Shown: positions 18,432 through 37,574 of the stretch, one piece after another
Layout of the letters: every line of letters begins with the position of its first letter
Position numbering within the stretch: position 1 is the stretch's first letter
Origin: a virus
Reading direction: 5' to 3' (one strand)
DNA length: 37,574 nt
IMG/VR virus record: IMGVR_UViG_3300011114_000786
Span: 1-37,574 of that record
Made by a program: the position numbers and the translations under genes
The notes under the pieces: model-generated
Databases searched by the model: none
Told to the model about the DNA's origin: nothing
What the model saw: the letters and a program-made list of their open reading frames with translations, nothing else

Positions 18432-18434
18432 AGT

Positions 18435-19734: not shown

Positions 19735-19747
19735 TGGTTAGTTTGTT

Positions 19748-20737: not shown

Positions 20738-20740
20738 GAT

Positions 20741-20935: not shown

Positions 20936-20953
20936 GTTATTCTATTGGTTTAA

Positions 20954-21364: not shown

Positions 21365-21393
21365 TTTCCAAAAGTTTAATTATCGTTAAAAAG

Positions 21394-21861: not shown

Positions 21862-22099
21862 TTTGTTTGAGTTCAAAAAGTCCGCGCCAACCATTGCTGA
21901 TTGACTGATTGATAATTTGTATTGCTGTATCTTCGCTGTTGTTCGATAGTTGCGAAAGGTGGATGAGTGCTGCCTGTTCGCTGATTATCCCTTTGTAGGA
22001 AAAGCGGAACTGTTCTTTCTTATAAAGTTTCCATGTGTCCCATGCAAGCAGGAATCGGTCAGAGGTGAAAGGGTAAATGATTTCAAATTCAGATTTCAT
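21785..22099 (-). CDS. Hypothetical protein with NGWRGLF motif
   Basis: A 104-aa protein. The N-terminal part (FEIIYPFTSDRFLLAWDTWK) is followed by a helix and AIQIINQSISNGWRGLFEL. A similar NGWxGLF tail occurs at the end of DNA-binding replication proteins of Bacteroidota phages and plasmids, so a role in replication initiation or helicase loading is possible. It overlaps the fused helicase-methyltransferase gene by ATGA and overlaps the next gene by about 77 bp. Confidence 0.6.
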   Translation of the reverse strand: MKSEFEIIYPFTSDRFLLAWDTWKLYKKEQFRFSYKGIISEQAALIHLSQLSNNSEDTAIQIINQSISNGWRGLFELKQNGTTKQQNAITTNQEQRDRIISGTL

Positions 22100-24285: not shown

Positions 24286-24338
24286 TCGGCTGCAAATATT
24301 TAATTCTGTTTGTGAAAATTTCTGACTTTGTTTTATTA

Positions 24339-24356
24339 GTAACTTTTAATAGTTAC
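24339..24356 (-). promoter_or_regulatory. Inverted repeat upstream of the helicase-methyltransferase gene
   Basis: GTAACT and AGTTAC form a 6-bp inverted repeat with a 6-bp AT spacer in an 82-bp gap between the HTH gene stop and the fusion-gene start. It may be an operator or a weak hairpin. Further down, TAAATATTTGCA lies 9-20 bases before the ATG and resembles a Bacteroidota -7 element. Confidence 0.35.
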
Positions 24357-24367
24357 GCAACTATAAT

Positions 24368-24661
24368 TTATAGATAATAACTGATAACCGTTTTCTTCCC
24401 CTTCTCATCACGCAGCCATTCCTTTTTTACTTCAATCTTGTTTGCTTTAAGTTCGCTTATTCGGGTTGATAGCGAGTTTATACCATATTCATTCGCTGCA
24501 CCAAGCTGTGTCAATCGCACTCCCGACAGCAACAGGTCATAAACCTTTCGCAACTGGATTGAGAAGTGTTCATAGTTGTCGTGAAGGTGTTGTTCTGATT
24601 CTGCATTGTTCTCTCGTTCGTGACAAAACAAAGGTGGTTGGTTGAATAAGTCAAAGTTCAT
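24368..24661 (-). CDS. Winged-helix DNA-binding protein (HTH_39-like)
   Basis: A 97-aa protein when started at MNFDLFNQPPLF, whose ATG overlaps the stop of the homing endonuclease gene by ATGA. The second half has YDLLLSGVRLTQLGAANEYG and then SLSTRISELKANKIEVKKEW, the turn and recognition helix of the HTH_39 type found in phage proteins. It is a candidate regulator of the early region. The upstream in-frame start (24694) lies inside the neighbour and is less likely. Confidence 0.75.
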   Translation of the reverse strand: MNFDLFNQPPLFCHERENNAESEQHLHDNYEHFSIQLRKVYDLLLSGVRLTQLGAANEYGINSLSTRISELKANKIEVKKEWLRDEKGKKTVISYYL

Positions 24662-25197
24662 TTGCCGAAATAGTTTTCTGTTACGCTTTTCCAAATTTTA
24701 CCTTTTAAAATTTTACCAATACCAGATTGAGAATAATTTAACATTAACGCTATTTTTTTATTGGTAATTGATAGTTTTTTTAAAAAAAATATTGCATGTA
24801 TATCGTCATGTGATAGCTTAGAATTATAAACATTTTCACCTTTTATATTATTAATTAAACCTAATTTATAGGCGTGACGGGTGTTTTCGCTTGCGGTAAC
24901 CCATTCAAGGTTTTCAACTCTGTTGTCTGTTTTGATTCCATTAATATGATTCACCTGTGGTTTGCTTTCGTTATTAGGAATGAATGCTTGTGCAACAAGG
25001 CGGTGAGCAGGTTTAGATTTATGAATATTATTCTTAGAAAGACAATACATAAAATAGCCATCTCTTGAAATGGCTGGCATTAAAAGACGATGGTTTTTTA
25101 TCGTTCCATTTCGTGGATAACTTTTCAGATTTCCTAAATTACTGATTTGATACAATCTTTCATAACCAATTATATCTTTCCAAATTTCTTCTTTCAT
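24658..25197 (-). CDS. HNH homing-type endonuclease with NUMOD4
   Basis: A 179-aa protein starting at MKEEIWKDIIGYERLYQISN, a NUMOD4 domain (about 5-50). The HNH part has HRLVAQAFIPN (H65 onwards), VNHINGIKTDNRVENLEWV and TASENTRHAY. The last 45 residues form a helix-turn-helix, and the end (ENYFGK) repeats the end of the VRR-NUC nuclease upstream (DNYFGK). Such genes are mobile. It sits as a free-standing ORF with a hairpin in front of its start. ATGA overlap with the HTH gene downstream may have been taken over from the interrupted host operon. Confidence 0.85.
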   Translation of the reverse strand: MKEEIWKDIIGYERLYQISNLGNLKSYPRNGTIKNHRLLMPAISRDGYFMYCLSKNNIHKSKPAHRLVAQAFIPNNESKPQVNHINGIKTDNRVENLEWVTASENTRHAYKLGLINNIKGENVYNSKLSHDDIHAIFFLKKLSITNKKIALMLNYSQSGIGKILKGKIWKSVTENYFGK

Positions 25198-25204
25198 AAA
25201 ATTA

Positions 25205-25272
25205 CCCTTACTCGAACACAAAGGCAATCCAGTCGGAACGAGTGTTCCATAGGCATTGTATAAGAATAAGGG
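25205..25272 (-). promoter_or_regulatory. Hairpin leader that may hide the endonuclease ribosome-binding region
   Basis: On the minus strand CCCTTATTC (25272-25264) can pair with GAGTAAGGG (25213-25205; one G-U pair), so the 3' arm ends just 7 bases before the ATG at 25197. Inside lies a second hairpin, GGAAC/GTTCC around a 4-nt loop (25235-25248). The outer stem covers the purine-rich TAAGGG. Similar hairpins limit translation of T4 homing endonucleases. Confidence 0.55.
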
Positions 25273-25333
25273 ATTTTTAATTTCATTGTAACTGAATTGC
25301 GTTGCAAAGATAATCATATTTTGATAAAGAAAA

Positions 25334-25672
25334 TTATTTGCCAAAATAATTATCAACAATTTTTTTTACTTCATCAAAACTATATGCTACTTCAACAGAA
25401 TATCCGTTTGCTCTCAATCTGCCATGCCATGCTATCTGTGTTGTTGTCGGTTTGTTCTTTCCTACTTTCAGTTCAATAAATAATCCGCAATACAACCCTG
25501 ACCGTTGAGCAATGAATAAATCAGGAACGCCTGCCTTTGTGCCGGTTGCTTTCATCTTCGCTGCTTCTTTGATGTTTCTGCTTCCACCATTGGGAATAGC
25601 GAAGTAGGTATAGCGCGAATAATCAAGCCATCGGCAAACGGCTTTTTGAAGGTTGTCTTCGTTGTGTTTCAT
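25334..25672 (-). CDS. VRR-NUC domain nuclease
   Basis: A 112-aa stand-alone VRR-NUC domain. It shows the PD-(D/E)xK motif: AGVPDLFI (P50-D51), then GLFIELKVG (E67, K69), and a following TQIAWHGRLRANGYSVEVAYS segment with Q79. Such phage nucleases act on branched or Holliday-like DNA. The chosen ATG at 25672 forms a TGATG overlap with the upstream gene; another ATG is 12 bases upstream. It is separated from the next early gene by the homing endonuclease. Confidence 0.85.
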   Translation of the reverse strand: MKHNEDNLQKAVCRWLDYSRYTYFAIPNGGSRNIKEAAKMKATGTKAGVPDLFIAQRSGLYCGLFIELKVGKNKPTTTQIAWHGRLRANGYSVEVAYSFDEVKKIVDNYFGK

Positions 25673-25905
25673 CAGAATGGACAATAGTGTTGGATGACTT
25701 TATTTTGAACTGTAAGACCTTTATTAATTGCAAGGTCTGAGTATCGTTTGCTTGTCTTTGGAATCCTGAAGTGTGGTCTATTCATGTGAAATTCTTTCGT
25801 CAGTTCAATAGGTGATTCGTTTTGTAAAATATAAACTTTCCTTTCTTCAGTTACTCCTAACTGCAATTTATCATTCCACCATTTACAACGTATTTCTTCA
25901 ATCAT
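25672..25905 (-). CDS. Hypothetical protein upstream of the nuclease
   Basis: A 77-aa protein (MIEEIRCKWWNDKLQLG, middle RKVYILQNESPIELTKEF, C-terminus with KVIQHYCPF). It has a WW-type N-terminus and a basic helix-like middle (RPHFRIPKTSKRYSDLA), which could be a short DNA-binding turn. TGATG overlap couples it to the nuclease. It is the first phage gene after the cassette array. Confidence 0.65.
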   Translation of the reverse strand: MIEEIRCKWWNDKLQLGVTEERKVYILQNESPIELTKEFHMNRPHFRIPKTSKRYSDLAINKGLTVQNKVIQHYCPF

Positions 25906-25963
25906 GTAAAAAAGTTGTTTGATTGTTAGTTGATTAGTTTACAAAATAGTGTAGATAATAGAT

Positions 25964-25986
25964 GTTATGCGAAAAAAAATTATCCC
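25964..25986. repeat. Left inverted repeat of cassette A
   Basis: GTTATGCG, eight A, then TTATCCC. It matches the complement of 26230-26252 at 21 of 23 positions. It starts the array next to the phage early gene at 25905. Confidence 0.8.
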
Positions 25987-25994
25987 GCCAACGC

Positions 25995-26189
25995 TCATAG
26001 AACGATACATTTCACTTTCACAACTGCCATGTGGCTCTTTACCTGTTCCCATGTTCCCCTGTGGTCGCAACACGCTTCCTTTGCCTGTTTACGGGTGCGA
26101 TAAACTCTTTGATGTAGCATCCCCCAATTAGCGGTTGCCCATCCTGTGAACTCTGTTCCTTTTTTTGGAATTGGTTGTTTCTGTTTCAT
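25995..26189 (-). CDS. Small conserved protein (cassette A cargo)
   Basis: A 64-aa protein when started at MKQKQPIPKKGTEF (an in-frame ATG lies nine codons upstream). It has a Trp/Arg-rich middle (GWATANWGMLHQRVYRTRK), then CCDHRGTWEQVKSHMAVVKVKC. The AxxACCxHRGxTWE-type part resembles small proteins of unknown function spread among bacteria. Basic and compact, it may bind nucleic acid. It is flanked by 23-bp inverted repeats, so it appears to be the sole gene of a cassette. Confidence 0.65.
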   Translation of the reverse strand: MKQKQPIPKKGTEFTGWATANWGMLHQRVYRTRKQAKEACCDHRGTWEQVKSHMAVVKVKCIVL

Positions 26190-26229
26190 TGTTTTGATTT
26201 TTATATTTACGAGCATCCCACGCTCAAAA

Positions 26230-26252
26230 GGGATAATTTTTCATCGCATAAC
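26230..26252. repeat. Right inverted repeat of cassette A
   Basis: Inverted complement of 25964-25986 with two mismatches. Its last bases, CGCATAAC, are also the R-like box of the attC-like site that follows. Confidence 0.8.
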
Positions 26253-26337
26253 AAACAAACTAAATGCAATAATGAAAATGCTTTTCTCGTTTTTAAATTT
26301 GGTATTTTCATTACTGACATTAGTTTGCCGAACGTTA
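26249..26337. other. attC-like palindrome 1
   Basis: The left arm TAAC-AAA-CAAACTAAATG pairs with the right arm, whose complement reads TAAC-GTTCGG-CAAACTAATG. The internal loop is 3 versus 6 nt and one extra A remains unpaired in the left arm. The arms extend through TAATGAAAAT with full match. This is the R box, spacer, L box and extrahelical-base pattern of attC sites. No gene lies in 26190-26359. Confidence 0.6.
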
Positions 26338-26349
26338 CTTGCAAGTGGG
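26334..26349. repeat. Left inverted repeat of cassette B
   Basis: GTTACTTGCAAGTGGG. It matches the complement of 27568-27583 at 15 of 16 positions and flanks the C5 methyltransferase gene. It contains the palindrome ACTTGCAAGT. Confidence 0.75.
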
Positions 26350-26359
26350 GTGTAGTGTT

Positions 26360-27505
26360 TCATATTGAAGGTTCCGTTTCAAAACTTTTTAAAAAATTAG
26401 CCCCACCCGCATCAGTTTTTTCAAAACTGTGAAGAGGTTTTAGCCATTGCTCAAAAATTTCATCTGCTATCCTTGCAGTCATTATCGGTGGCACACTCAT
26501 TCCAATCATATATTTTGCACCGCTTTCAGATTCCGTTTTGAAATTATAGTCCATCGGGAATGTTCCGCACTTAATATAATCTTCATCAGAACAAGCCATC
26601 CCATCAGCAAACCGCCAATTTGTTTCACCGGCTGTAATTGTGCTTGCAATATCTTCATCGTGCCAAATCATTGCATTAAATCCGCTTTGTTTGTTGTATA
26701 ACCGATTGTTTATGTCATTCATACACTTATCCGTTTTTATTCTATGTTCCATTAGTTTGCCTCTTTCGGTGTGTAAATAATTTTTCCCTTTTTCACTTCT
26801 CACTTTTCCGAAATTTATTCCTTGCTCTTTAAATTGTAATTCCAACAATGGGGCAACGGTAAATAAATCCTTTTGGTAATTGAATTTACTGCATAGGTCA
26901 TTTCTCAATGCTACAAAGAAAACCCTTTCACGCCTTTGCGGAACGCCCATTTTTGAAGCATCTAAAAGCCAATGTTGAACATTGTAACCAGCATTTTCAA
27001 ACTCCCTGTAAATCTGAATTACATATTGTTTTGCCTCACCCATCATTAACCCCTTAACATTTTCGGCAACAACCACCTTTGGTTGCAGTTTTTTAGCAAG
27101 GTCAATGAAATCAAAAAACAGCGTATCTAAAACCTGTTCGGCTTGCCCTTCCCTGAATTGTTTTTCTTTACCCCAATCATCTTCCCTGTTTCCAGCCATT
27201 GAAAAGCTGCTGCAAGGCGGTGAGCCGTCTAAAATGTCCAAATGGTATAATTCATCAGGTAAATCATTGCGTTGTTTAAAGGTCTGTATTGGCTCTAAAT
27301 AGGCATACTTTGGATTATGGTTCAGTTTGTATGTTTCAATCATTTTCGGGTCAATTTCATTGCATCCCAAAACATCAAACCCTGATAACTTATAGCCCAT
27401 AGTTGAACCACCGCCACAGGCAAAACAAGAAAATACTTTCCCTTTGTTTTTAGTGAACTCTGCATTTTGCAAAGTCCATTCATAATTGTAGATTTTTTTT
27501 CCCAC
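26360..27505 (-). CDS. dcm: DNA cytosine-5 methyltransferase (cassette B cargo)
   Basis: A 381-aa C5 methyltransferase with all main motifs: motif I SCFACGGGSTMG (27-38), motif IV GSPPCSSFS with the catalytic C98, motif VI ENVKG (149-153), motif VIII QRRERVFFV (190-198), and a C-terminal motif X region near IMTARIADEIF. The target-recognition part (about 205-270) is small. The start is GTG at 27505; a TAG stop lies just upstream and there is no earlier ATG. No partner endonuclease is visible, so it is likely an orphan, protecting phage DNA or altering expression. It is bounded by inverted repeats and attC-like sites. Confidence 0.9.
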   Translation of the reverse strand: MGKKIYNYEWTLQNAEFTKNKGKVFSCFACGGGSTMGYKLSGFDVLGCNEIDPKMIETYKLNHNPKYAYLEPIQTFKQRNDLPDELYHLDILDGSPPCSSFSMAGNREDDWGKEKQFREGQAEQVLDTLFFDFIDLAKKLQPKVVVAENVKGLMMGEAKQYVIQIYREFENAGYNVQHWLLDASKMGVPQRRERVFFVALRNDLCSKFNYQKDLFTVAPLLELQFKEQGINFGKVRSEKGKNYLHTERGKLMEHRIKTDKCMNDINNRLYNKQSGFNAMIWHDEDIASTITAGETNWRFADGMACSDEDYIKCGTFPMDYNFKTESESGAKYMIGMSVPPIMTARIADEIFEQWLKPLHSFEKTDAGGANFLKSFETEPSI

Positions 27506-27567
27506 GCTTCGCTAATTTTTTAAAAAGTTTTGTTCAGTTCTTCGTATTGAGGTTTCTGCTTAATAAT

Positions 27568-27583
27568 CCCACCTGCAAGTAAC
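27568..27583. repeat. Right inverted repeat of cassette B
   Basis: CCCACCTGCAAGTAAC, complement of the left repeat at 26334 with one mismatch. It ends in TAAC, which starts attC-like site 2. Confidence 0.75.
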
Positions 27584-27703
27584 AATAAGTTAAAAGAAAG
27601 AGGGGGTGTGTAGGTTATTTGAGCTGAGTGCATTTAATCAAGTTTAGTGGTTTCAGAAAGTGAAGTGCTTTTAATCCCCTCCTTCTTTAACTCCATTTCG
27701 TTA
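27580..27703. other. attC-like palindrome 2
   Basis: The left arm reads TAAC-AATAA-GTTAAAAGAAAGAGGGG and the complement of the right arm reads TAAC-GAAATGGA-GTTAAAGAAGGAGGGG. The internal loop is 5 versus 8 nt, and one extra A is unpaired in the left arm. It fills most of the 195-bp gap between the methyltransferase start and the RHH-like gene stop. The stop TAA of that gene overlaps the terminal GTTA. Confidence 0.6.
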
Positions 27704-27730
27704 TGCCGCATTTTTTTTCTTCTTTTTTTT
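27700..27730. repeat. Left inverted repeat of cassette C
   Basis: GTTATGCCGCA followed by eight T, CTTC and eight T. It matches the complement of 28597-28628 (GTTATGCTGTCG, eight T, CTTC, eight T). The RHH-like gene runs through it and so ends in a Lys run. Confidence 0.75.
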
Positions 27731-27913
27731 CTCCCCTGCCCACGCTTCAAGCAAACTTTCTACATAGTTCTTAAAGTTAGTCCCGTTTTCTATTGCCTGT
27801 ATTGAAAGAGTTTTAATTGTTGCCTCCGTCAAGTGAATGTTCTTTGGTTTTCTGTCCATGTTCAAAATATTTAATTCGTTAGTTGTATCAATTATTTCAA
27901 GTAGTGTTTTCAT
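27701..27913 (-). CDS. Ribbon-helix-helix-like protein, antitoxin candidate (cassette C)
   Basis: A 70-aa protein with a ribbon-helix-helix-like core: RKPKNIHLTEATIKTLSIQA, then ENGTNFKNYVESLLEAW. Such proteins often serve as antitoxins or autorepressors. The last residues (GEKKKKKKNAA) are coded by the inverted repeat at the cassette border, so the tail may be a by-product of cassette formation. ATGA overlap couples it to the upstream gene. It is the last gene of a three-gene unit with its own promoter and a palindromic operator. Confidence 0.7.
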   Translation of the reverse strand: MKTLLEIIDTTNELNILNMDRKPKNIHLTEATIKTLSIQAIENGTNFKNYVESLLEAWAGEKKKKKKNAA

Positions 27914-28215
27914 TCAAATTCTTGTTTCAGTTTCTCATAAAGTTTTAACCTACCATCACGAAGCTCATTCATCTTTTTATCCCATTTGTCTTTTCGTATC
28001 TCAAACTCTCTATCGTTTTCTAATCTCTCACGATATACAATTACCCTACTACTATCATCATAACTGTTATTCTCTGAAATCATCCCTTCCTCTTTTTCAA
28101 TGTCAATAATATCAGTGGGTAAAATGTCTTTTGGTAAATCCGAAAACAGAAACCCTCTTATCAAGCCATCATAATGCTTGATGAAAATTTGTTCTTTTAT
28201 AATTTGCTTTTTCAT
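27910..28215 (-). CDS. Hypothetical protein, cassette C middle gene
   Basis: A 101-aa protein with a basic first strand (MKKQIIKEQIFIKHYDGLIR) and an acidic middle, followed by a long charged helix (YRERLENDREFEIRKDKWDK) to the end. ATGA overlaps tie it to both neighbours. It could be the partner of the RHH-like protein in a toxin-antitoxin-like unit or a chaperone-like third component; no family recognised. Confidence 0.65.
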   Translation of the reverse strand: MKKQIIKEQIFIKHYDGLIRGFLFSDLPKDILPTDIIDIEKEEGMISENNSYDDSSRVIVYRERLENDREFEIRKDKWDKKMNELRDGRLKLYEKLKQEFE

Positions 28216-28448
28216 ATTTTGAAGTAGTTTAATTTTCTCAACTCAACCAAAAGTCCTGAATAAACTTTGCACTCAGGGGCTTGAATTTTTTTATTGATGT
28301 AAATTTCGTTTGCAAAAAAATCTATATCAATCATAGCATGGTGCATTTTGCCATTACGAGTGTAAAGAACTTTTGCGTTCCAATCATTACTCTTTGTTTC
28401 ATCGTTTCCGAAGTAGTTGATTTTTTCTATTTTGATTGCTGGTGCCAT
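28212..28448 (-). CDS. Hypothetical protein, cassette C first gene (possible toxin-like partner)
   Basis: A 78-aa alpha/beta protein (MAPAIKIEKINYFGNDET, HHAMIDIDFFANEIYINKKI, ending ELRKLNYFKI). It is the first gene after the cassette promoter, 24 bp from the -7 element, and is coupled to the next gene by ATGA. Small size and operon place fit a toxin-antitoxin-like unit, but there is no recognisable toxin fold and no direct evidence. Confidence 0.65.
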   Translation of the reverse strand: MAPAIKIEKINYFGNDETKSNDWNAKVLYTRNGKMHHAMIDIDFFANEIYINKKIQAPECKVYSGLLVELRKLNYFKI

Positions 28449-28471
28449 TTTGTTTGTTTTTAATTATGGAG

Positions 28472-28509
28472 CAAATATACACCATATACTTCCAATATTC
28501 CAAGTATAT
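28472..28509 (-). promoter_or_regulatory. Promoter and operator of the cassette C operon
   Basis: On the minus strand TATATTTG at 28479-28472 fits the Bacteroidota -7 element TAnnTTTG. Just upstream is a perfect inverted repeat, ATATACTT/AAGTATAT with a 10-bp spacer (28484-28509), placed where a repressor would block RNA polymerase. The RHH-like protein of the operon is the obvious candidate repressor. Confidence 0.7.
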
Positions 28510-28596
28510 TTGTAACTATTTTTAAAAATTTTCATAACTGCTTGATATTCAAAGAGATTATTTTTAGTTGAAAAGGTTGAAATACAGCCCACGCAC

Positions 28597-28628
28597 AAAA
28601 AAAAGAAGAAAAAAAACGACAGCATAAC
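28597..28628. repeat. Right inverted repeat of cassette C
   Basis: Eight A, GAAG, eight A, CGAC, AGCATAAC. It is the complement of 27700-27730, with the 20-bp T8-CTTC-T8 core exact. It runs directly into attC-like site 3. Confidence 0.75.
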
Positions 28629-28725
28629 ACCGTATTAAAAGATATAAAAAATGGCAATGAAGTTCCTGCTAAAATTTGAAGTTTATCGTATGCCATTTTT
28701 AACATCTTTAATCCCTTCTTCGTTA
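28625..28725. other. attC-like palindrome 3
   Basis: The left arm TAAC-ACCGT-ATTAAAAGATATAAAAA continues with TGGCA. The complement of the right arm is TAAC-GAAGAAGGG-ATTAAAGATGTTAAAAA, again followed by TGGCA. The loop is 5 versus 9 nt and one extra A is unpaired in the left arm. This fills the gap between cassettes C and D; no gene was seen in 28510-28734. Confidence 0.6.
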
Positions 28726-28734
28726 GCTGCAATG

Positions 28735-28869
28735 CTAACTGACTTCTTCCAAATCGAGCCTTGTTTCTCCAAAGCGTTTATTGAGTAAGCATTCTAATAA
28801 TGTTATTTCAGGCACTTTGTAATATTTGCCATTAATAAATATTTGTTCGTGCATCAACGCTTCTAACAT
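28735..28869 (-). CDS. Small hypothetical protein (cassette D, second ORF)
   Basis: A 44-aa ORF, MLEALMHEQIFINGKYYKVP and ending TRLDLEEVS. Its start overlaps the stop of the preceding tiny ORF (ATGTTAG), so the pair may be coupled, or may be one gene broken by a frameshift. Its stop lies about 10 bp from attC-like site 3. The sequence has a beta-hairpin look (EQIFINGKYYKVPEI). Function unknown. Confidence 0.5.
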   Translation of the reverse strand: MLEALMHEQIFINGKYYKVPEITLLECLLNKRFGETRLDLEEVS

Positions 28870-28958
28870 TGATTTTTATCAAGTCTTACATAACAAGTTA
28901 TAATTGTTCTTGTCTTTATCGGCTCTTGAATTTCCAAGTAATTAGTTAAATTAATCAT
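28863..28958 (-). CDS. Tiny ORF (cassette D, first ORF; uncertain)
   Basis: A 31-aa ORF, MINLTNYLEIQEPIKTRTII, ending DKNQC. It overlaps the next ORF by 7 bp. It may be the front part of a gene split by a frameshift, since the second ORF continues directly. Small size makes it uncertain. Confidence 0.35.
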   Translation of the reverse strand: MINLTNYLEIQEPIKTRTIITCYVRLDKNQC

Positions 28959-28995
28959 TCTATTTTAGTTTTTCGTTAATAAATCGCACTGGTTA

Positions 28996-29057
28996 TAACA
29001 GCACCTAAATCGCAAATTTTGTGAAGAACAAAATCAGCGTTTAGCTGCGAACCGTTA
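28996..29057. other. attC-like palindrome 4 (array border)
   Basis: The left arm TAAC-AG-CACCTAAATCGC continues with AAATTTTG. The complement of the right arm is TAAC-GGTTCG-CAGCTAAACGC, then TGATTTTG. The loop is 2 versus 6 nt and one T is unpaired in the left arm. TATAAC/GTTATA extend both ends. This is the shortest and most typical of the four. The stop codon of the phage gene at 29055 lies on its border. Confidence 0.65.
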
Positions 29058-29339
29058 TATTTCACTCCCTATCGAATCAGCCATCTTCACATCTTCTAAA
29101 TAAAACTCCTTTGCCTTACTGAAATCAACACGTTCAATCACCGGCTCAATGAAAGGGCTGTTTACAATTCGTTCAATCATTTCTTCTGACTGTTCCTTCA
29201 TCCAGTCCGGTGTATCGTCATGTTCGGTTATATCGCATTTAAGACCACAACAACCACAACTCCAATAATAATTCATTTTGTTGTCACCGAAACGTATTAC
29301 AGGAATACTGCAACATTTACTTAATCGTTGAATAGCCAT
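29055..29339 (-). CDS. Small Cys-rich zinc-binding-like protein
   Basis: A 94-aa protein with an N-terminal Cys cluster, SKCCSIPVIRFGDNKMNYYW and then SCGCCGLKCDITEHDD, a possible zinc ribbon. The C-terminal half is acidic and helical (MKEQSEEMIERIVNSPF). The stop (TAA) overlaps the GTTATA border of attC-like site 4, so the array begins right at this gene's end. The start overlaps the upstream gene by 1 bp. Confidence 0.7.
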   Translation of the reverse strand: MAIQRLSKCCSIPVIRFGDNKMNYYWSCGCCGLKCDITEHDDTPDWMKEQSEEMIERIVNSPFIEPVIERVDFSKAKEFYLEDVKMADSIGSEI

Positions 29340-29695
29340 TATGGTTGAAGTTTGTTTTTAATTTGATTAATTAATAGTTCCATCCGTGCATTGTAAAACT
29401 CTGAAAAGGTTTTGAATCCTTCATTATTCTGTTCCCAAAGGATATACAATACAGCCCTTAACCGCTGTGAGTTGCTTTTTATTCCATCCAGTTCATCAAC
29501 CTTTGACGATTCAATTATTTCTTTCTCTCCTTTGTTAAACGGCTCAACCTTGATAGCAAGATACACCATTTGATTATTGAGAGAGAAAAGGTCACCTGCC
29601 ATTGAAGGCATCAGTTCCTGTGTTCCGAAGGTCAGCTTTATTGTCTTGTCTTTTCGAGACTGAATACCCTCTACCTGTGCAGCAATTAAAATCAT
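29339..29695 (-). CDS. Hypothetical protein next to the SSB-like gene
   Basis: A 118-aa protein. The first half has strands (MILIAAQVEGIQSRKDKTI, MVYLAIKVEPFNKGEKEII) and the second half helices (SQRLRAVLYILWEQNNEGF, FYNARMELLINQIKNKL). It lies one base after the SSB-like gene and is probably its functional partner in single-strand DNA metabolism, although no family can be named. Confidence 0.65.
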   Translation of the reverse strand: MILIAAQVEGIQSRKDKTIKLTFGTQELMPSMAGDLFSLNNQMVYLAIKVEPFNKGEKEIIESSKVDELDGIKSNSQRLRAVLYILWEQNNEGFKTFSEFYNARMELLINQIKNKLQP

Positions 29696-29696
29696 A

Positions 29697-30326
29697 TTAA
29701 AACGGTAAATTATCTTCTATTCCTTGTGTGGTTTCTGACTGGTGAACAATTTCTTCTTCGCTCGGATTGACTGCACGTTTGTATTCTTCGCTCTGTTTCA
29801 TCTTGTCCTGTAACCACGTTGGCAACTCATTGAAAACAAAAATATCAAAGTTGTCATAGTTCCATTCAAACGACTTATTGATTTGCGGCGCAACAGTGAT
29901 TCCTTTCATCGGTGCTGAAATACTGCTTATTTCTGCATACAGCTTTCCTGCTTTGCTTGTTTTATGAATGACTGATAACATACAAGGAATGCCGAGCAGC
30001 TTCGTTATATCGAATGACTTTGCCTCTTCTTCGGTGAATCCTTTGCCACGCCATCCCTCAAGGAACTTGCGAAGGTTAGATTTTTCGTGCATCGAAAGGG
30101 TGAACTCCTTGCTGATAGCCATCGGCTGTTCGCCTTTGTCAGCATTGAACACCTTCATTTCTGTTGGCAGTTCCCATGTGATACGAACTTTGTTCATCAT
30201 TTTATCTTCACCCATGAAATTCTCTTTCACTGTTCCGATATGAATCATTGAATAACATCGTGCAGGGTAAGTTCCTGCATCAATCGGCTTAAAGTCAGAG
30301 CCACCTGTGTTGGTTGCATTAATCAT
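29697..30326 (-). CDS. Probable single-stranded DNA-binding protein
   Basis: A 209-aa protein. The first part (TYPARCYSMIHIGTVKENFM, KVRITWELP, EFTLSMHEKSNLRKFLEGW) looks like an OB-fold of the phage replication or recombination type (DUF669-like). The protein ends GIEDNLPF, an acidic tip with a terminal Pro-Phe, as in bacterial SSB tails that recruit repair and replication proteins. It should coat single-stranded DNA during phage replication or annealing. Identity is inferred from pattern and from the diagnostic tail. Confidence 0.7.
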   Translation of the reverse strand: MINATNTGGSDFKPIDAGTYPARCYSMIHIGTVKENFMGEDKMMNKVRITWELPTEMKVFNADKGEQPMAISKEFTLSMHEKSNLRKFLEGWRGKGFTEEEAKSFDITKLLGIPCMLSVIHKTSKAGKLYAEISSISAPMKGITVAPQINKSFEWNYDNFDIFVFNELPTWLQDKMKQSEEYKRAVNPSEEEIVHQSETTQGIEDNLPF

Positions 30327-30339
30327 TGTTTATTTGTTT

Positions 30340-30537
30340 TTAGTTGTGAAAAATTAAATGTCGGTTATCGGAAGCAATTAGTATTTGATTGCAGGTGCTG
30401 TTGAAAGTATTTTTCATAAATCGTTTACGATGAAACGCGGAATGAAAATGAATCATTCTGCCACCTGCTGATATGCCGCCTCTGATGAAGTGTGCCTGTG
30501 ATTTAAGTGCTGATGAAATTGTTGGCTTGGTTGTCAT
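30340..30537 (-). CDS. Small basic hypothetical protein
   Basis: A 65-aa ORF (MTTKPTISSALKSQAHFIRG, middle HFHSAFHRKRFMKNTFNS, ending ASDNRHLIFHN). It is His/Arg-rich and fills the gap between the SSB-like gene and the next early gene. The ORF opposite it is not convincing. No family recognised; moderate confidence only. Confidence 0.5.
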   Translation of the reverse strand: MTTKPTISSALKSQAHFIRGGISAGGRMIHFHSAFHRKRFMKNTFNSTCNQILIASDNRHLIFHN

Positions 30538-30620
30538 TGGTTCAGTTATTTACATAACCCTTCCTATCAGGAAGTCCGTGTTTAAGGAGGTGGTCACCCT
30601 CGTTATATGTTGTGAATTGA

Positions 30621-30830
30621 TTAGTTTTTATTCAATCTTGCTTTTAATCGTTCGTGAATCTGTTCTGTTCGGCGTGTGTCTTTAAAAAATTCTGCCTTCG
30701 CTATTGTCATGGCTGTTTCTTCATGGCTGAATAATTTAGAAAGCAATTTGCCTTTCTGAATCTTCGCATAGTTGATTCCTACATTCACTTTGTTTTCGTG
30801 TGTCAGTTCACCGCGTAGAAAATGTTTCAT
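30621..30830 (-). CDS. Small basic hypothetical protein
   Basis: A 69-aa protein (MKHFLRGELTHENKVNVGIN, ending IHERLKARLNKN), rich in Lys and Arg, with a helical C-terminus. It overlaps the upstream gene by TGATG. Followed by an 83-bp gap with hairpin-forming sequence. Possibly DNA-binding; function unknown. Confidence 0.6.
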   Translation of the reverse strand: MKHFLRGELTHENKVNVGINYAKIQKGKLLSKLFSHEETAMTIAKAEFFKDTRRTEQIHERLKARLNKN

Positions 30831-31108
30831 CAGAATATTTTTGAAAAGTTTGAAAAAAGGTTATTCAGTATTTTTGTTGTGTCCATTGCATTGCGAAATT
30901 CGATGTTGTCGCTTGGCTGTTCGTCACCGCAATCTCTATCGCTGATAACATCATCCTGTTCCGTTTCATTCGGCTCTATCCGTTGAGCGATGAAAGGGTT
31001 TGTTCCGCCTATCGGCAAATCTTTTTCAATACGTTCAGCAATTACTTTTCCGTAATGCTGTGAGTCAATTCCTTTTTGCATTTTGTTGTTGGGTTTAATT
31101 GTGAACAT
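30830..31108 (-). CDS. Hypothetical protein
   Basis: A 92-aa ORF (MFTIKPNNKMQKGIDSQHYG), with a later acidic stretch (NETEQDDVISDRDCGDEQ). The start at 31108 overlaps the small membrane ORF upstream by 67 bp; starting at the second Met (31081) shortens the overlap. A C-terminal helix (TTKILNNLFSNFSKIF) ends it. It is coupled to the next gene by TGATG. No family recognised. Confidence 0.6.
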   Translation of the reverse strand: MFTIKPNNKMQKGIDSQHYGKVIAERIEKDLPIGGTNPFIAQRIEPNETEQDDVISDRDCGDEQPSDNIEFRNAMDTTKILNNLFSNFSKIF

Positions 31109-31206
31109 TGTCTGATTGATAAGGTAAGAGAAAGGAATCCGAGAAGGGTAAAAAGATAGATAACAACTTCAACCGGTTTCATCTTGGCGCGTGGTGGTTT
31201 CTGCAT
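31042..31206 (-). CDS. Small membrane protein (uncertain)
   Basis: A 54-aa ORF, MQKPPRAKMKPVEVVIYLFT and then LLGFLSLTLSIRQCSQL, one membrane span after a basic N-terminus. It starts 3 bp after the stop of the upstream gene, which supports translation, but its 3' third overlaps the next gene in another frame. Confidence 0.45.
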   Translation of the reverse strand: MQKPPRAKMKPVEVVIYLFTLLGFLSLTLSIRQCSQLNPTTKCKKELTHSITEK

Positions 31207-31208
31207 GG

Positions 31209-31367
31209 TTATTTCGTTTTACAAAAGTCACATGAATAAATTTTCTCTTTCAGTTTTTCTTCACCGCCTGCACATTTAATTTTTGCGCCAGTGAAAAGTA
31301 ATCTGACAACTTTTTTCTTTTCGTCAGGGGATAGTTTTTTTCTTCCGCGTGTTTCTTTTTTTTTCAT
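31209..31367 (-). CDS. Small basic protein
   Basis: A 52-aa protein (MKKKETRGRKKLSPDEKKKV, then IKCAGGEEKLKEKIYSCDFC). The N-terminal RGRKKLSPDEKK resembles a common start of small Bacteroidota phage DNA-binding proteins. Single Cys residues (C32, C46, C49) might bind metal. It fits tightly between its neighbours. Confidence 0.65.
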   Translation of the reverse strand: MKKKETRGRKKLSPDEKKKVVRLLFTGAKIKCAGGEEKLKEKIYSCDFCKTK

Positions 31368-31377
31368 GTTCGTTTGT

Positions 31378-31692
31378 TTAAAGTGCTGAATTTATTGCTT
31401 GTTGAATTTTATATCTCATTTCGTTTCCCTGGGGCAGTTCGTCAAAACAAGTATTAAACATTATTTTACGAAGTTCCAAAAGTGTTTCAATCATTATTGG
31501 TGAAGCTGCGATTAGTTTTGCATTAGCTTCTGCTTCTTCAAAGTGTGGTTTGGTTGCGCCAACCTTTGCTATGACTTCCCCATCAACTTCGATGGTAGGT
31601 ATTTGAGAAATATTGTTTTGGTAAATACCAACAGTCCAATTACCTTTGGAAAAGTTAGAGTTAATTTGTGATAAAAATTTTTCTTGATTCAT
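31378..31692 (-). CDS. Hypothetical phage protein with ANAKLIAASP motif
   Basis: A 104-aa protein. The first half is beta-rich (GNWTVGIYQNNISQIPTIEV). It then has EEAEANAKLIAASPIMIETL, a segment found at the same position in many phage early proteins of unknown function, and a helical end. Length is typical for those proteins. It follows the leader region with two hairpins. Confidence 0.7.
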   Translation of the reverse strand: MNQEKFLSQINSNFSKGNWTVGIYQNNISQIPTIEVDGEVIAKVGATKPHFEEAEANAKLIAASPIMIETLLELRKIMFNTCFDELPQGNEMRYKIQQAINSAL

Positions 31693-31724
31693 TTTTTTAA
31701 TTTTTTGCTTAGTGAAATAAATAA

Positions 31725-31774
31725 AGCACGTTTCGTGTGCTACCCGCCTGCTGAACTTTGCAGGAAACAGCAGG
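31725..31774 (-). terminator. Tandem hairpins after the first early gene (attenuator candidate)
   Basis: On the minus strand, CCTGCTG/CAGCAGG (31774-31747) is followed by AGCACACG/CGTGCT (31741-31725) and a T-rich TTTATTTATTT. They lie between the first small early gene and the rest of the operon and may form a partial terminator that adjusts downstream expression. Confidence 0.5.
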
Positions 31775-31777
31775 GAG

Positions 31778-31933
31778 TTAAATTTTTACAAAATATCTAT
31801 TGTCGGAACAATGCGTTCGGTAAAACAATTTAAAGTCTATGATTGCATTCTCTTCTGATGTTGCATTTATGTATTCAGAAAAAAATAATTCGTTTGTAGA
31901 AACAACATAAAGTTTAACAAGATAATTTTTCAT
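31778..31933 (-). CDS. First small early protein
   Basis: A 51-aa protein, MKNYLVKLYVVSTNELFFSE, then YINATSEENAIIDFKLFY. It has the look of a beta-strand plus helix plus strand fold, like many small phage early proteins that alter host functions. It is the first gene after the minus-strand promoter at 31977. Its place as the first early gene suggests strong early expression; function unknown. Confidence 0.7.
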   Translation of the reverse strand: MKNYLVKLYVVSTNELFFSEYINATSEENAIIDFKLFYRTHCSDNRYFVKI

Positions 31934-31969
31934 TGTGCAAAGTTTTTTGTTTTGTCGTTATTGACTTTG

Positions 31970-31977
31970 CAAATGTA
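31970..31977 (-). promoter_or_regulatory. Early minus-strand promoter (-7 element)
   Basis: TACATTTG on the minus strand is an exact TAnnTTTG match, 37 bp upstream of the first early ATG. The upstream stretch is T/A-rich, with no clear -33 TTG at the best distance. It likely drives the whole minus-strand operon. Confidence 0.55.
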
Positions 31978-32098
31978 AAAGCATTATTTGAATAAAAAAA
32001 CTTTTTTATTGTTATTTTTTTGCTACTTCTATAAATGTTTGAAAATCAAAGGAATAAATTTTTTTAAAATAAATTTCTTTTTATCAAAAAGATTGTTT

Positions 32099-32106
32099 TA
32101 TATTTG
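32099..32106 (+). promoter_or_regulatory. Plus-strand promoter for the small RNA region (-7 element)
   Basis: TATATTTG fits TAnnTTTG exactly and is followed by GC, as in many Bacteroidota promoters. It is about 120 bp from the divergent early promoter. No gene starts nearby, so it probably drives a non-coding RNA. Confidence 0.65.
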
Positions 32107-32111
32107 CGCCA

Positions 32112-32226
32112 TCAATAGCGGGTGAACGATTATTGATTCAACTACGGACTCTTCAAGTTTTTTAAAATAAGAAAGAACCCTTTGAGAATATTCAGTTCAC
32201 CCTGAAGAAACTTGAAGGGTTTTTTC
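32112..32226 (+). ncRNA. Candidate pseudoknotted small RNA with intrinsic terminator
   Basis: About 115 nt starting a few bases after the promoter. ATCAATA/TATTGAT (32111-32117, 32131-32137) closes a hairpin. Its loop GGGTGAAC (32120-32127) pairs with GTTCACCC (32195-32202). CTTCAAGTTT (32151-32160) pairs with AAACTTGAAG (32208-32217), and since its arms interleave with the previous pair they form a pseudoknot. AACCCTT (32176-32182) can instead pair with AAGGGTT (32215-32221) before a T run, an intrinsic terminator. No ORF of note lies inside. Not a tRNA. Family unknown. Confidence 0.6.
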
Positions 32227-32355
32227 GTTGTGCAAATTGCAGGGCTGCATAAAGGATAACACCGAACGTAATTGATTTTAAATATTGGATTGACCTGACT
32301 CGCGCCAACCAGTAGCCTCATTCATCTCACCGGACACCTTATTCGAGAGTTAGTT

Positions 32356-32430
32356 GGTAATCACATGAATTACTCCCAATCCCTCTCATTAACTTGAGGG
32401 GGTAAGGGGGTGACTCACGTGATTACCTTT
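32356..32430 (+). terminator. Long hairpin, terminator-like, before the HNH gene
   Basis: GGTAATCACATGA pairs with TCACGTGATTACC (32356-32368, 32415-32427) at 12 of 13 positions; the stem continues with ACTCCC/GGGGGT and CCCTC/GAGGG, then TTTT follows. It could end the RNA transcript. ATTAACTTGAG (32388) is also repeated inverted at 32451, an alternative fold. No gene was seen in 32227-32481. Confidence 0.55.
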
Positions 32431-32481
32431 TATCTATCCGTTTTCCTTTTCTCAAGTTAATTACGTTTTGATAAAGATAAA

Positions 32482-32955
32482 ATGAAAAATAAAAAACACA
32501 TTCAACAAAAAACGGCAAGAAAAAAATTGTTTCGTTATATGCACCACATTCTTGGATTGTCGTTGCACAAAATAAGACTGGGAACAGCGATTGATTTATT
32601 TGCCAAAGAAAGAAACTTGGTTGTAACAGGAAATAAAAGAGAGTGGTTATACAATCTTTATCTTTCCGGTGAAGATGAAATAATCAGAAAAGAAATTGGA
32701 GAATTTTATCAAACAGAGGAGTGGAGAGAATTACGAAAAAAAGTTTTGGATTACTATGGTTGTGAATGTATGAAGTGTAAGTTCAATAGCCCTTCAAATT
32801 GCGTTGACCATATTAAACCAAGAAGCAAATATCCTGAACTCCAATTAGATTTTAACAATATGCAAGTGCTTTGTGTTATTTGTAATTTGATTAAAAGTAA
32901 CAGAACAGAAATTGATTACCGAAATAAAAATACACTTTCTCAAAATTTATTTTAA
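32482..32955 (+). CDS. HNH endonuclease
   Basis: A 157-aa protein. The N-terminal half is helical and basic, followed by an HNH domain: YYGCECMKC (C96 and C99), NCVDHIKPRS with D109-H110, LDFNNMQVLCVICN with N126 and C131/C134. The two Cys pairs form the zinc-binding frame of the ICP-type HNH domain. In phages such proteins either help DNA packaging or are free-standing homing enzymes. It follows the gene-free structured region and is 9 bp from the next gene. Packaging function is less likely because terminase is far away by this map. Confidence 0.8.
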   Translation: MKNKKHIQQKTARKKLFRYMHHILGLSLHKIRLGTAIDLFAKERNLVVTGNKREWLYNLYLSGEDEIIRKEIGEFYQTEEWRELRKKVLDYYGCECMKCKFNSPSNCVDHIKPRSKYPELQLDFNNMQVLCVICNLIKSNRTEIDYRNKNTLSQNLF

Positions 32956-32960
32956 CTTTG
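32953..32960 (+). promoter_or_regulatory. Promoter -7 element before the lipoprotein cluster
   Basis: TAACTTTG matches TAnnTTTG and overlaps the stop of the HNH gene, just 4 bp before the next ATG (32965). This would give a transcript with a very short leader. Confidence 0.5.
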
Positions 32961-32964
32961 CAAA

Positions 32965-33150
32965 ATGACAATTCTCTTTAAACTCAATGACGAAAGGCAA
33001 ACACTGATTAAAGAATCAGAAAGTTATCAGATTCCTTCTGTTCATGATTTTCTAATCATCGAGAAAATAAAGTATCAGGTATTGTCGAAGATATTTCACA
33101 TCGAATCAGATGTTGTTGATGTTATCGTTCACCAAATTATTGAAAACTAA
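32965..33150 (+). CDS. Small hypothetical protein
   Basis: A 61-aa protein (MTILFKLNDERQTLIKESES, ending DVVDVIVHQIIEN), alpha/beta. It is followed with one base gap by the lipoprotein gene. There is a promoter-like TAACTTTG at its start. Function unknown. Confidence 0.6.
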   Translation: MTILFKLNDERQTLIKESESYQIPSVHDFLIIEKIKYQVLSKIFHIESDVVDVIVHQIIEN

Positions 33151-33151
33151 A

Positions 33152-33460
33152 ATGAAAACAATTCTTTTTCTCCTTGTTGCATTTATTTTTTTACTGGGTT
33201 GTGCAAAGTCAAAGATTCAGAAAGTGGTTTTCAGCTGCACCGGAGGCAGTGGTGACTATACGATGACATATACAAGTTCAGGTAATGTTATTCAAGGTAA
33301 TTATTCCGATGTAACATACATGCTTGATGCAGGGCAATATGGATATGCTAATGCGTTTGACAACAGCGGCGCAACATTCACAATGAATGTAACTGTTGAT
33401 GGAACGGTGATAAACACCAAGACAGGAACAGCCATTGAACTGAATTACACAAATCAATAG
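33152..33460 (+). CDS. Phage lipoprotein
   Basis: A 102-aa protein with a lipoprotein signal peptide: MKTILFLLVAFIFLLGCAKSK, where LLGC is the lipobox and C20 becomes lipidated. The mature part is a small beta-sandwich (FSCTGGSGDYTMTYTSSGNV). The start at 33152 is preferred over an upstream ATG because it gives a clean signal. It may block superinfection at the host envelope or act in lysis as a spanin-like part. The protein is too small for an enzyme. Confidence 0.75.
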   Translation: MKTILFLLVAFIFLLGCAKSKIQKVVFSCTGGSGDYTMTYTSSGNVIQGNYSDVTYMLDAGQYGYANAFDNSGATFTMNVTVDGTVINTKTGTAIELNYTNQ

Positions 33461-33530
33461 TTAATAAGTTTTTATCTTTTGTTATTAAAAGTCAAATAGA
33501 TATAATTACTTTCGCGTTTTCAAAATATCA

Positions 33531-33989
33531 ATGAACTGGATGGAAGAAGTTTATTGTAATGAAGTAAAAACAGTTGCCGACAAAATAGTTGGTAAGCACA
33601 AACATCTATCTGCCGACCTTATGAGCCATGTGTTTTGTTATATGACAACACTGCCTGATAGCAAGATTACCGACATACAGACGAAAGGAAATATCAAAGG
33701 TTATTTTATTCGCACGATGTATTTTGAATTTAACAACCCACGAACAACATTTTACAAACAATTCAGAAAGCAATACAGGTCTGCTCCGATGACAGACAAC
33801 CATGACTACGCAAAGGACAGGAAGATTGAAGAGGTGCTTGATGCTATTGACAAGCTGCCAAGCCATGAATACATGACACTGATGTCAGTTATCAATTACA
33901 GGTCAATTAATGAGATGAGCAAGGCAACGACTATCAACTACAAATGGATAGCGGCAACACTTAAATCGGTTAGAGAAAAGATAAAATGA
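33531..33989 (+). CDS. Sigma-factor-like protein
   Basis: A 152-aa protein resembling a two-domain sigma-70 family factor. The first part (ADLMSHVFCYMTTLP, IKGYFIRTMYFEFNN) corresponds to region 2 and ends with basic FYKQFRKQYR. The second (IDKLPSHEYMTLMSVINYRS, MSKATTINYKWIAATLKSV) has the pattern of the region 4 helix-turn-helix. It would direct host RNA polymerase to phage promoters, perhaps those with the GTAATATTATAGT motif. A promoter-like TACTTTCG lies upstream. It is weakly conserved, so the call is tentative. Confidence 0.65.
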   Translation: MNWMEEVYCNEVKTVADKIVGKHKHLSADLMSHVFCYMTTLPDSKITDIQTKGNIKGYFIRTMYFEFNNPRTTFYKQFRKQYRSAPMTDNHDYAKDRKIEEVLDAIDKLPSHEYMTLMSVINYRSINEMSKATTINYKWIAATLKSVREKIK

Positions 33990-35740
33990 GAATAACAGCA
34001 GCAGTAGATTTGACAGGTGACAGCGGTAAAGATTACTGGAGGTTACAGATGCCATTGAATCACTTAGGCAAATACCATGACTGCACAATAAAAGTATTAC
34101 CACACTTTGACCATGATAACCTAACCCTACCCGATGGAAGTGTTATCAGATTAGAAGATGTGTTGCGTGAAACAGATTTGATAGTGATAGGACAGGGTTA
34201 TGTATCAGCCAACTTCTCGGCTCGTGTTAAATACCTGAAATCATTTTGCCCTATTATCTTAGACATTGATGACTACTGGCGGTTGCCTGATACACACCCG
34301 ATGCAGAAGATGTATCTGAAAAATAAGATTGGCGAATGGACGGAGATGAAACTGCGAAGTGTGGATGCGGTGACAACAACCAATGACACACTTGCTGAAC
34401 TGATTTATCCTTTCAACCATAATGTGTATGTATTGCCAAATGCTATTGACACCGACAATGAACAGTTTGATAACAACCGCGAAGAAACAAACAGCACAAC
34501 CTTTGGCTACATGGGTGGAACGAACCACGCTGCCGATGTGAAGTTATTAGTAGAGCCGGTAAAGAAACTATATGAACTGGAGAAAGATTTTCAACTGAAA
34601 CTTTATGGCTTTCATGCAGATAACCCTGACATGAACTATTATGAATACATTCTGACTGACAGAAGAAAGAAACACCCAATCAATGAACCGCGATATAAAA
34701 GGGTTGGTGCAGCAATGGTGACCGACTATGCGAAAGGATATAACAGTATGAATGTTTCGCTTGCTCCGTTGGTTGATAACACCTACAACCGATGCAAGAG
34801 TGACCTGAAGATGATTGAGGCAGCAAACTTCGGCATACCAATCATCACCAACAACCAAGCAACCTACCCACAACTGAAAGACGGCGTGAATGGAATACTG
34901 ACAAAGAACTGGCTGCGCTCCCTTCGTGACTGCATACATGACAAAGACATGGTTGATGCGCTTGGTTACTCTGCTAAGCAGCTATTCAAGAATCAAACCC
35001 TTGAACATACGAACACGAACCGGTTAGAGGTTTACAAAATGGTGACAGGTAAAAGCCATCGACCAACACTGCGTGAACTGAACGGCGATAAGCTGAAAGT
35101 GTTTTCAATCTGTTATGACGAACAACATACTGCCGACTATAACCGATACGACAACAACCGAAAGACAATAGCTGATGGAAGTTATCTGTTTGAATATAAC
35201 CCGATGATTGAGATAATGAACAATCATTTTGAGATGGATGACTACATTGCTATACTTAGTTATCGCCACCGGATGAAGACAGGCGTGACACCATCACAAC
35301 TGATGAACCTGATGCAACAGGAAGAACAAGACAGTGATGTTTATGGACTATCGCCAAGCATTTACAAAGGCAACTATCTGAAAGAATCATTCAAGGCACA
35401 CCCGAACCTTGATAAACTGATAAAGGCACTTTGTAAAGAACTGAAGTTGATAGTTGCCGAACCATACGCAGTGGTGTTCAGCAATTCATTCATAGCCAAA
35501 TATCCTATATACAAAGAATTTATTGAAACGATAGTGAAACCGGCTATTGACCTGATGGAAGACAACCAAGAAATAAGAACAATGGCATGGAAAGACAGCC
35601 AATACCAAAACCTAACTAAAGAGGAGTTGAAAGAAAAAACAGGACTGGATTACTACCCGATGCACACCTTTGCATTGGAAAGACTATTCAGCATTTGGTT
35701 AGAGAATCATCCAAACATTAAATTTAGGCAACTGATATGA
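33986..35740 (+). CDS. Two-domain glycosyltransferase (GT4-like)
   Basis: A 584-aa protein. The first 370 residues have a GT-B fold pattern: start MRITAAVDLTGDSGKDYWRL, DIDDYWRLP (93-101) and TFGYMGGTNHAADVKLL. The sugar-nucleotide site is near KSDLKMIEAANFGIPII (271-287), the E-x7-E type seen in GT4. The C-terminal 200 residues (FNPMIE-like region with DDYIAILSYRHR) seem to be a second transferase-like part. It overlaps both neighbours by ATGA. It probably decorates phage proteins or host glycans. The donor sugar cannot be told. Confidence 0.75.
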   Translation: MRITAAVDLTGDSGKDYWRLQMPLNHLGKYHDCTIKVLPHFDHDNLTLPDGSVIRLEDVLRETDLIVIGQGYVSANFSARVKYLKSFCPIILDIDDYWRLPDTHPMQKMYLKNKIGEWTEMKLRSVDAVTTTNDTLAELIYPFNHNVYVLPNAIDTDNEQFDNNREETNSTTFGYMGGTNHAADVKLLVEPVKKLYELEKDFQLKLYGFHADNPDMNYYEYILTDRRKKHPINEPRYKRVGAAMVTDYAKGYNSMNVSLAPLVDNTYNRCKSDLKMIEAANFGIPIITNNQATYPQLKDGVNGILTKNWLRSLRDCIHDKDMVDALGYSAKQLFKNQTLEHTNTNRLEVYKMVTGKSHRPTLRELNGDKLKVFSICYDEQHTADYNRYDNNRKTIADGSYLFEYNPMIEIMNNHFEMDDYIAILSYRHRMKTGVTPSQLMNLMQQEEQDSDVYGLSPSIYKGNYLKESFKAHPNLDKLIKALCKELKLIVAEPYAVVFSNSFIAKYPIYKEFIETIVKPAIDLMEDNQEIRTMAWKDSQYQNLTKEELKEKTGLDYYPMHTFALERLFSIWLENHPNIKFRQLI

Positions 35741-37322: not shown

Positions 37323-37456
37323 ACAAACATTCATTCCCATCTAAAAAGAATAGAGTTTTTCACGCTTTTATAGAGTTTCAAGAACAATCTGACCAACATT
37401 TATTATTAAAACCTAAGAAAAATATATGGAAAGTAAAGAAGAAGCAGCTAAACTGA
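37313..37456 (+). CDS. Small basic protein across the junction (GTG start)
   Basis: A 47-aa ORF (VAVNKHSFPSKKNRVFHAFI, ending WKVKKKQLN) with a GTG start that overlaps the previous stop by 10 bp and an end that overlaps the next gene's start. It fills a 103-bp gap and crosses the circular junction (stop at 37454-37456, equal to bases 7-9). Basic, unknown function. Confidence 0.45.
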   Translation: MAVNKHSFPSKKNRVFHAFIEFQEQSDQHLLLKPKKNIWKVKKKQLN

Positions 37457-37574
37457 TTGAACTTGCTCCATTATTAATGGCAATAGCATTGGCATCATCG
37501 TTCTTTGTCGGTCTTCCTTTCATTCAACGGATAAGAATAATGAGGTGGAATTATTTAAAGGTGATGAGAAACAA
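37426..37574 (+). CDS. 5' part of the small membrane protein at the left end
   Basis: ATG at 37426 opens the gene that is completed at bases 1-293. In frame it reads MESKEEAAKLIELAPLLMA and joins the reading frame of the left-end ORF. The window ends inside it. Confidence 0.75.
   Translation, partial: MESKEEAAKLIELAPLLMAIALASSFFVGLPFIQRIRIMRWNYLKVMRN
37448..37574. repeat. Right copy of the 127-bp terminal direct repeat
   Basis: Exact copy of bases 1-127. See the left copy. Confidence 0.95.

Follow-up and report, generated by a model that had tools for sequence, protein, structure and literature searches.

A putative kissing-loop attenuator leader in a phage genome and its sequence-hypervariable counterparts in phages of Flavobacterium and related bacteria

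The stretch of DNA analysed here (IMGVR_UViG_3300011114_000786, 37,574 nucleotides, hereafter the window) is apparently a complete phage genome, with bases 1-125 repeated at 37450-37574. Between 32099 and 32226, it encodes an RNA that we interpret, with moderate confidence, as the promoter-proximal attenuator leader of a phage gene, in which two loops of the same molecule would kiss, and as one instance of a widespread architecture with hypervariable sequence. Judged from the sequences compared, such kissing-terminator units probably decide the transcription of replication and endonuclease genes in many phages of Flavobacterium and related bacteria. The window RNA has the promoter, the 5′-terminal hairpin (H1), the 8-bp match between H1 loop and terminator loop (X:X′), the terminator hairpin (T) and the U-run of this class; it lacks an adjacent AUG, which is common among the units and not universal, and a match to the covariance model. 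We suggest that it works like the class and set membership in a sequence family aside, there being neither a homologue nor a model match.

The RNA locus and its predicted folds

Structural genes run rightward over 30-17864 (terminase at 1046, portal at 13036), replication and early genes leftward over 18012-31933 (including a C5 methylase at 26360 and an SNF2-type helicase-methyltransferase at 22096-24285), and an HNH/glycosyltransferase block rightward from 32482. The RNA locus lies in the divergent gap between the latter two (31934-32481), which bears out the gene-free setting described in the first-pass annotation, although its term “early/late boundary” is loose. Promoters in the window are of the Bacteroidota type, for which the consensus of the −7 element is TAnnTTTG (PMC10620806). 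One at 31977 (TACATTTG) faces leftward, and another on the plus strand (TATATTTG, 32099-32106) precedes H1 by 4 nt, so that transcription is expected to start near 32110-32112. H1 (32111-32137) has 7 bp with arms at 32111-32117 (ATCAATA) and 32131-32137 (TATTGAT) and a 13-nt loop containing X (GGGUGAAC / GGGTGAAC, 32120-32127). X is the perfect 8-bp complement of X′ (GUUCACCC / GTTCACCC, 32195-32202), the apical loop of the intrinsic-terminator hairpin T (32171-32226, plus strand). T comprises 16+4 bp (−23.0 kcal/mol), with an outer stem at 32171-32186/32211-32226, to which AACCCTT (32176-32182) and AAGGGTT (32215-32221) belong, an inner stem UUCA/UGAA at 32191-32194/32203-32206 and a T-run at 32220-32225; an A/T-rich spacer (32161-32170) lies directly 5′ of it. 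A possible antiterminator, the window-specific 10-bp helix CTTCAAGTTT/AAACTTGAAG (32151-32160/32208-32217), is interleaved with the 8-bp helix, and its 3′ arm overlaps AAGGGTT. The clear promoter element, the pseudoknot of two interleaved perfect helices, the participation of a hairpin loop and the overlap with the terminator arm had all been described at first pass, and each was found in place.

In the minimum free energy fold, H1 is followed by a single long terminator hairpin (−33.8 kcal/mol, z = −3.6). With its closing G-C pair open, the terminator loop consists of just those eight bases that complement the H1 loop; the 8-bp helix can accordingly form as a contact between the two loops while both hairpins stay in place. 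Among dinucleotide-shuffled versions of the 122 nt, 19% contain a perfect helix of at least 8 bp and 1.5% one of at least 10 bp, whereas the crossing pair of 8-bp and 10-bp helices occurs in 0.02%; the 8-bp helix by itself is unremarkable. Shuffling the whole window 150 times never produced the combination of promoter, hairpin, loop match of at least 7 bp and terminator.

The candidate regulated gene is that of the HNH endonuclease (32482-32955, plus strand; PF01844, E 2e-8; phrog_144). No further TAnnTTTG was present on the plus strand over 32106-32953, which leaves the promoter at 32099 as the only one recognisable for HNH and makes HNH the likely target of the unit. A scan of the minus strand for an antisense promoter of the same motif found none over 32111-32482. 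Between T and HNH lies a second strong, imperfect hairpin followed by TTTT (GGTAATCAC...GTGATTACC, 32356-32426, plus strand), whose apical segment (ATTAACTTGAG, 32388-32398) can pair perfectly over 11 bp with 32451-32461, a segment some 20 nt ahead of the HNH start; this hairpin would belong to the same leader if read-through happens. As a separate observation, TTTTTCGTTGTGCAAA (32221-32236) and TTTTTCATTGTGCAAA (31926-31941) are complementary over 16 nt with one G-U pair, and an RNA reading past T would pair over these 16 nt with the region around the start codon of the leftward ORF 31778-31933.

Searches by sequence returned no relatives of the RNA. As the first-pass annotation had stated, no known RNA family was recognised: Rfam gave only chance snoRNA matches away from the RNA in the window region 30000-34500, with nothing at or near the gathering threshold, and nothing above threshold, including riboswitches, for the window together with 11 related loci. 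At the DNA level, no homologue of the window RNA was found in phages, plasmids, IMG/VR patterns or 23 records that share the helicase, and the HNH and portal proteins used as bait yielded no kin. No unit was present in the divergent gap of the closest syntenic phage (G012, TerL about 41%), in Bacteroides phage B40-8 or in the first 49 kb of Cellulophaga phage phi38:1. The terminase identity of about 41% to this nearest syntenic phage contrasts with the 79-95% identity of the SNF2 helicase-methyltransferase in the best 80 of 520 phage contigs, which are otherwise mostly unrelated; this fusion is apparently a travelling gene, with kin in Chitinophagaceae and Bacteroidales genomes and, more distantly, in Flavobacterium phages.

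Recurrence of the architecture and covariation of the loops

Because the window RNA has no nucleotide homologue, the search was made by architecture, that is for a hairpin loop matching the inside of a downstream terminator. The same order, namely promoter, X (usually in H1), A-rich spacer, T enclosing X′ and U-run, recurs with unrelated letters at dozens of phage loci, all counted around one helicase and in a few isolates. A descriptor requiring the promoter, applied to about 1 Mb of IMG/VR phage DNA linked to the helicase, gave nine strict unique matches, all on the helicase strand, compared with six over 20 shuffles together (mean 0.3). A loose descriptor lacking the promoter gave 23 matches versus about 11 in controls, and since this is only about twofold enrichment, its single matches were not relied on. 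Inspection of the helicase flanks added further units, many of which begin a few bases after TATATTTG and stop just short of a start codon. As in the window, X′ lies inside the terminator hairpin of other phages' units, and the A-rich spacers of relatives (AAAAnnTTTAAA / GAAAATATTATA) are comparable to the window spacer. One unit-like element was seen directly behind a tRNA-like 3′ end (GGTTCGAATCC...; L014, about 2332-2419, minus strand).

For a blind test, 32 units, the window not among them, were picked by promoter, terminator, U-run and nearby ATG while complementarity was ignored. The longest X:X′ match averaged 6.7 bp; when leaders and terminators were exchanged among the units, the average was 5.0 and never rose above 5.7 in 2000 permutations. 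Matches of at least 7 bp occurred in 18 of the 32 units, whereas the permuted pairings gave 3.1 and at most 10 in 2000. Each leader is thus matched to the interior of its own terminator.

The unit is carried by the isolated phages FCV-1 (X/X′ GTAGAGAG/CTCTCTAC), mumin and snusmum (GTGGAACG/CGTTCCAC), morran (GTGAGAAG/CTTCTCAC) and 11b; the X/X′ pair of filifjonk is GTGAGACG/CGTCTCAC. In the Flavobacterium phage units, the equivalent of H1 occupies the same place, 2-5 nt 3′ of the promoter element. A pattern that left X free and omitted X′ retrieved 10 IMG/VR units (one being FCV-1 itself) and L210, an example of the units without a recognisable promoter, all with a perfect 8-bp X′; the pattern fixed most of H1, so that H1 conservation in these rows is partly by construction, while X′ and T lay outside it. 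The alignment of 13 Flavobacterium phage sequences has 98.7% of its cells paired. In the X:X′ helix, change is two-sided in five of the eight pairs and one-sided in none, with a covariation score of 0.464 compared with 0.220 for shuffled controls (0 of 500) and at most 0.109 for slid ones. The first-pass annotation had proposed a comparison with related phages for compensatory changes in its helices, and these exist for the equivalents of H1, X:X′ and T. On these sequences, the class-defining contact is that of the H1 loop with the terminator loop, which corrects the earlier reading as a switch.

The covariance model R1, based on the Flavobacterium-phage alignment A2 with the pseudoknot left out, picks up several units that had been found independently (L045, L028, L201:13026 and L023) but left window positions 32111-32230 unreported at E<=5 and at E<=10. 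X varies even within one genome, as the three units of snusmum9-1 have three different X. Between mumin and filifjonk, X changes at 4 of 16 positions and the flanks at 7 of 91 (P = 0.06), which is suggestive only of a faster evolution of X. In morran9-1, the annotated “hypothetical protein” gp042 overlaps an RNA unit (L203:201-344), and its frame is probably spurious.

Attenuation and alternative readings

The position of the units argues for attenuation. The next AUG or open frame lies within 30 nt of T in 17 of the 21 units with X of at least 7 bp, compared with 3 of the 15 with X of at most 5 bp, and the usual distance from T to AUG is 6-21 nt. Most units therefore have no room for a promoter between T and gene, so that transcription must cross T, which makes them attenuators by position. 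The genes behind them encode SNF2 helicases, DUF6291 and Lin1244-like proteins, a DEAD helicase and NUMOD4/HNH endonucleases; the units ahead of NUMOD4/HNH genes in snusmum9-1 (gp039) and L024 (weak domain match) are comparable to that of the window HNH.

The window departs from this spacing, its HNH AUG at 32482 following T by 256 nt, and the units of filifjonk and morran also have a longer gap before the next CDS. Together with the unit's own promoter and terminator, these distances would suit a structured small RNA that stands alone, being transcribed from 32099 and fully terminated at 32226, with loops acting in trans, a kissing fold that stabilises it and HNH expressed independently. We regard this as the best of the alternatives and still rather unlikely, because the closely spaced AUGs of the other units leave no space for a separate promoter and no conserved sequence marks a common target. 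The first-pass annotation had proposed a new small RNA, and the prediction of an RNA that is new, promoter-driven, pseudoknotted and terminator-ended stands, whereas a leader is the likelier role; both names may fit, with the terminated RNA of about 115 nt as the attenuated product.

It had also been proposed that the RNA could switch. In such a terminator/antiterminator switch, the 10-bp helix would compete with T, and X:X′ would bias the choice. The 10-bp helix rivals the 3′ arm of T and excludes the full hairpin, a perfect helix of this length is rare in shuffles (P = 0.015), and the forced antiterminator fold is energetically close to the terminator fold (−30.1 versus −33.8 kcal/mol). As the window transcript lengthens, X:X′ is best at 32203-32214, the 10-bp helix at 32217-32222 and T thereafter. 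The helix is not a general feature of the class: complementarity between leader and terminator arm averages 5.1 versus 4.7 in permuted pairings, within the permuted range, and the 10-bp helix lies outside the covarying structure of the Flavobacterium family. We therefore consider the switch improbable and reject a general antiterminator helix across units.

DNA-level dyads, serving as operators or replication-control sites instead of RNA structure, are a very unlikely account. A divergent control gap is where such sites might be sought, and the motif AACTTGA has only four local copies, arranged as two inverted pairs in the window RNA region, but the elements keep a fixed polarity with promoter and U-run, X and X′ change together with their letters nearly free, and the homologues retain G-U wobbles in H1 (UA/UG 7:6 at one pair) and in T (UG/UA/CG at one pair). 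Least credible of all is an ordinary terminator with chance complementarity, since the frequency of lone 8-bp helices in shuffles and the lack of homologues to weigh against chance for the window copy itself are set against recurrence, the blind permutation test, homologous covariation in other phages and the absence of the arrangement from all shuffled windows.

In the attenuator leader that we prefer, the RNA would start with H1, and X in its loop would pair with X′ in the apical loop of the terminator to give an intramolecular kissing or pseudoknot complex. Since X is transcribed first and X′ still ahead of the 3′ arm of T, X:X′ can form earlier than T, as in the prefix folds of the window, and the complex could persist together with T. 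The folding of X:X′ relative to T would set the frequency of polymerase read-through, in either direction, and the terminated RNA would be a by-product of attenuation. For the window, we infer transcription from 32099, termination at 32226 and control of HNH. Candidate triggers are a protein that recognises the kissing complex by its shape, a signal of the host's state or mere kinetic tuning; conservation is confined to shape and matching, which makes a protein of this kind or purely kinetic control seem likelier than a small-molecule ligand. Rom, for example, recognises the kissing loops of ColE1.

Two variants of attenuation concern other units or further functions. In L011, L015, L022, L042, L051-L055, L074 and L167, X immediately precedes a tiny frame that begins MK.FK or MKN.., often crosses the terminator and in some cases reaches the next start codon; translation may thus contribute in some units, the tiny-frame units being candidate translated attenuators, and the window unit has no short frame of the MK.FK type. 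More speculatively, the units could be self-addressed switches, a possibility to which we give little weight: the terminated leader, carrying both X and X′, would bind in trans to leaders still being transcribed from the same unit and thereby sense phage copy number. Other units and phages would be unaffected because X differs within one genome and between close relatives. If true, replication genes of phages would possess a same-strand sensor of copy number or superinfection, comparable to the copy-number sensing of plasmid RNAs.

Phages of Bacteroidota belong to the most common viruses of the gut and of fresh water, and to our knowledge RNA-based gene control in them is little described. A literature search for such attenuators in these phages, with many subscription papers outside its reach, found no description, and a paper on Baltic Flavobacterium phages makes no mention of RNA, promoters or terminators. 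A leader whose only strict rule is that its loops match is hard to detect by sequence search or Rfam models, which would explain why it is uncatalogued. The units precede core replication genes and occur in laboratory isolates and are hence directly testable; if loop matching alone sets read-through, they would offer a simple orthogonal switch for Bacteroidota genetics.

Comparison with known systems

The HMP-PP (thiS) riboswitch has a pseudoknotted aptamer embedded in a terminator with strictly conserved nucleotides and resembles the window class as a compact leader with structure within an intrinsic terminator, a possible pseudoknot and the terminator just upstream of the gene (PMC6478431). 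In the phage units, by contrast, the letters of X and X′ are nearly free, complementarity alone is kept and no ligand is suggested.

Several RNAs of plasmids and phages share single aspects of the design. In the antisense-RNA attenuators of pT181 and pIP501 and in ColE1 RNAI/RNAII, the partner loop belongs to a second RNA, transcribed antisense from the opposite strand; they resemble the phage units in 7-8-bp loop-loop pairing in replication-gene leaders and in attenuation at an intrinsic terminator, whereas both loops of a phage unit are on one RNA. The repBA pseudoknot acts on translation. PK-repBA (RF01089), found in plasmid repBA leaders, likewise joins a hairpin loop to a downstream pseudoknot in a replication-gene leader, but the window RNA itself does not match it. 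One other locus does, below the gathering score (L053:607-724, just upstream of the helicase gene, E 0.006). The C4 antisense RNA of phages P1 and P7 (RF01695) is processed and trans-acting and makes no contact between a loop and a terminator loop; it is similar to the units in being a phage RNA with same-strand complementary segments just upstream of the regulated gene, although neither the window RNA nor the related loci have an Rfam match above threshold. Finally, phi29 pRNA has two mutually complementary loops that pair between molecules in the packaging ring. It too is a phage RNA with matching loops, but the phage units described here are predicted leaders of replication and endonuclease genes.
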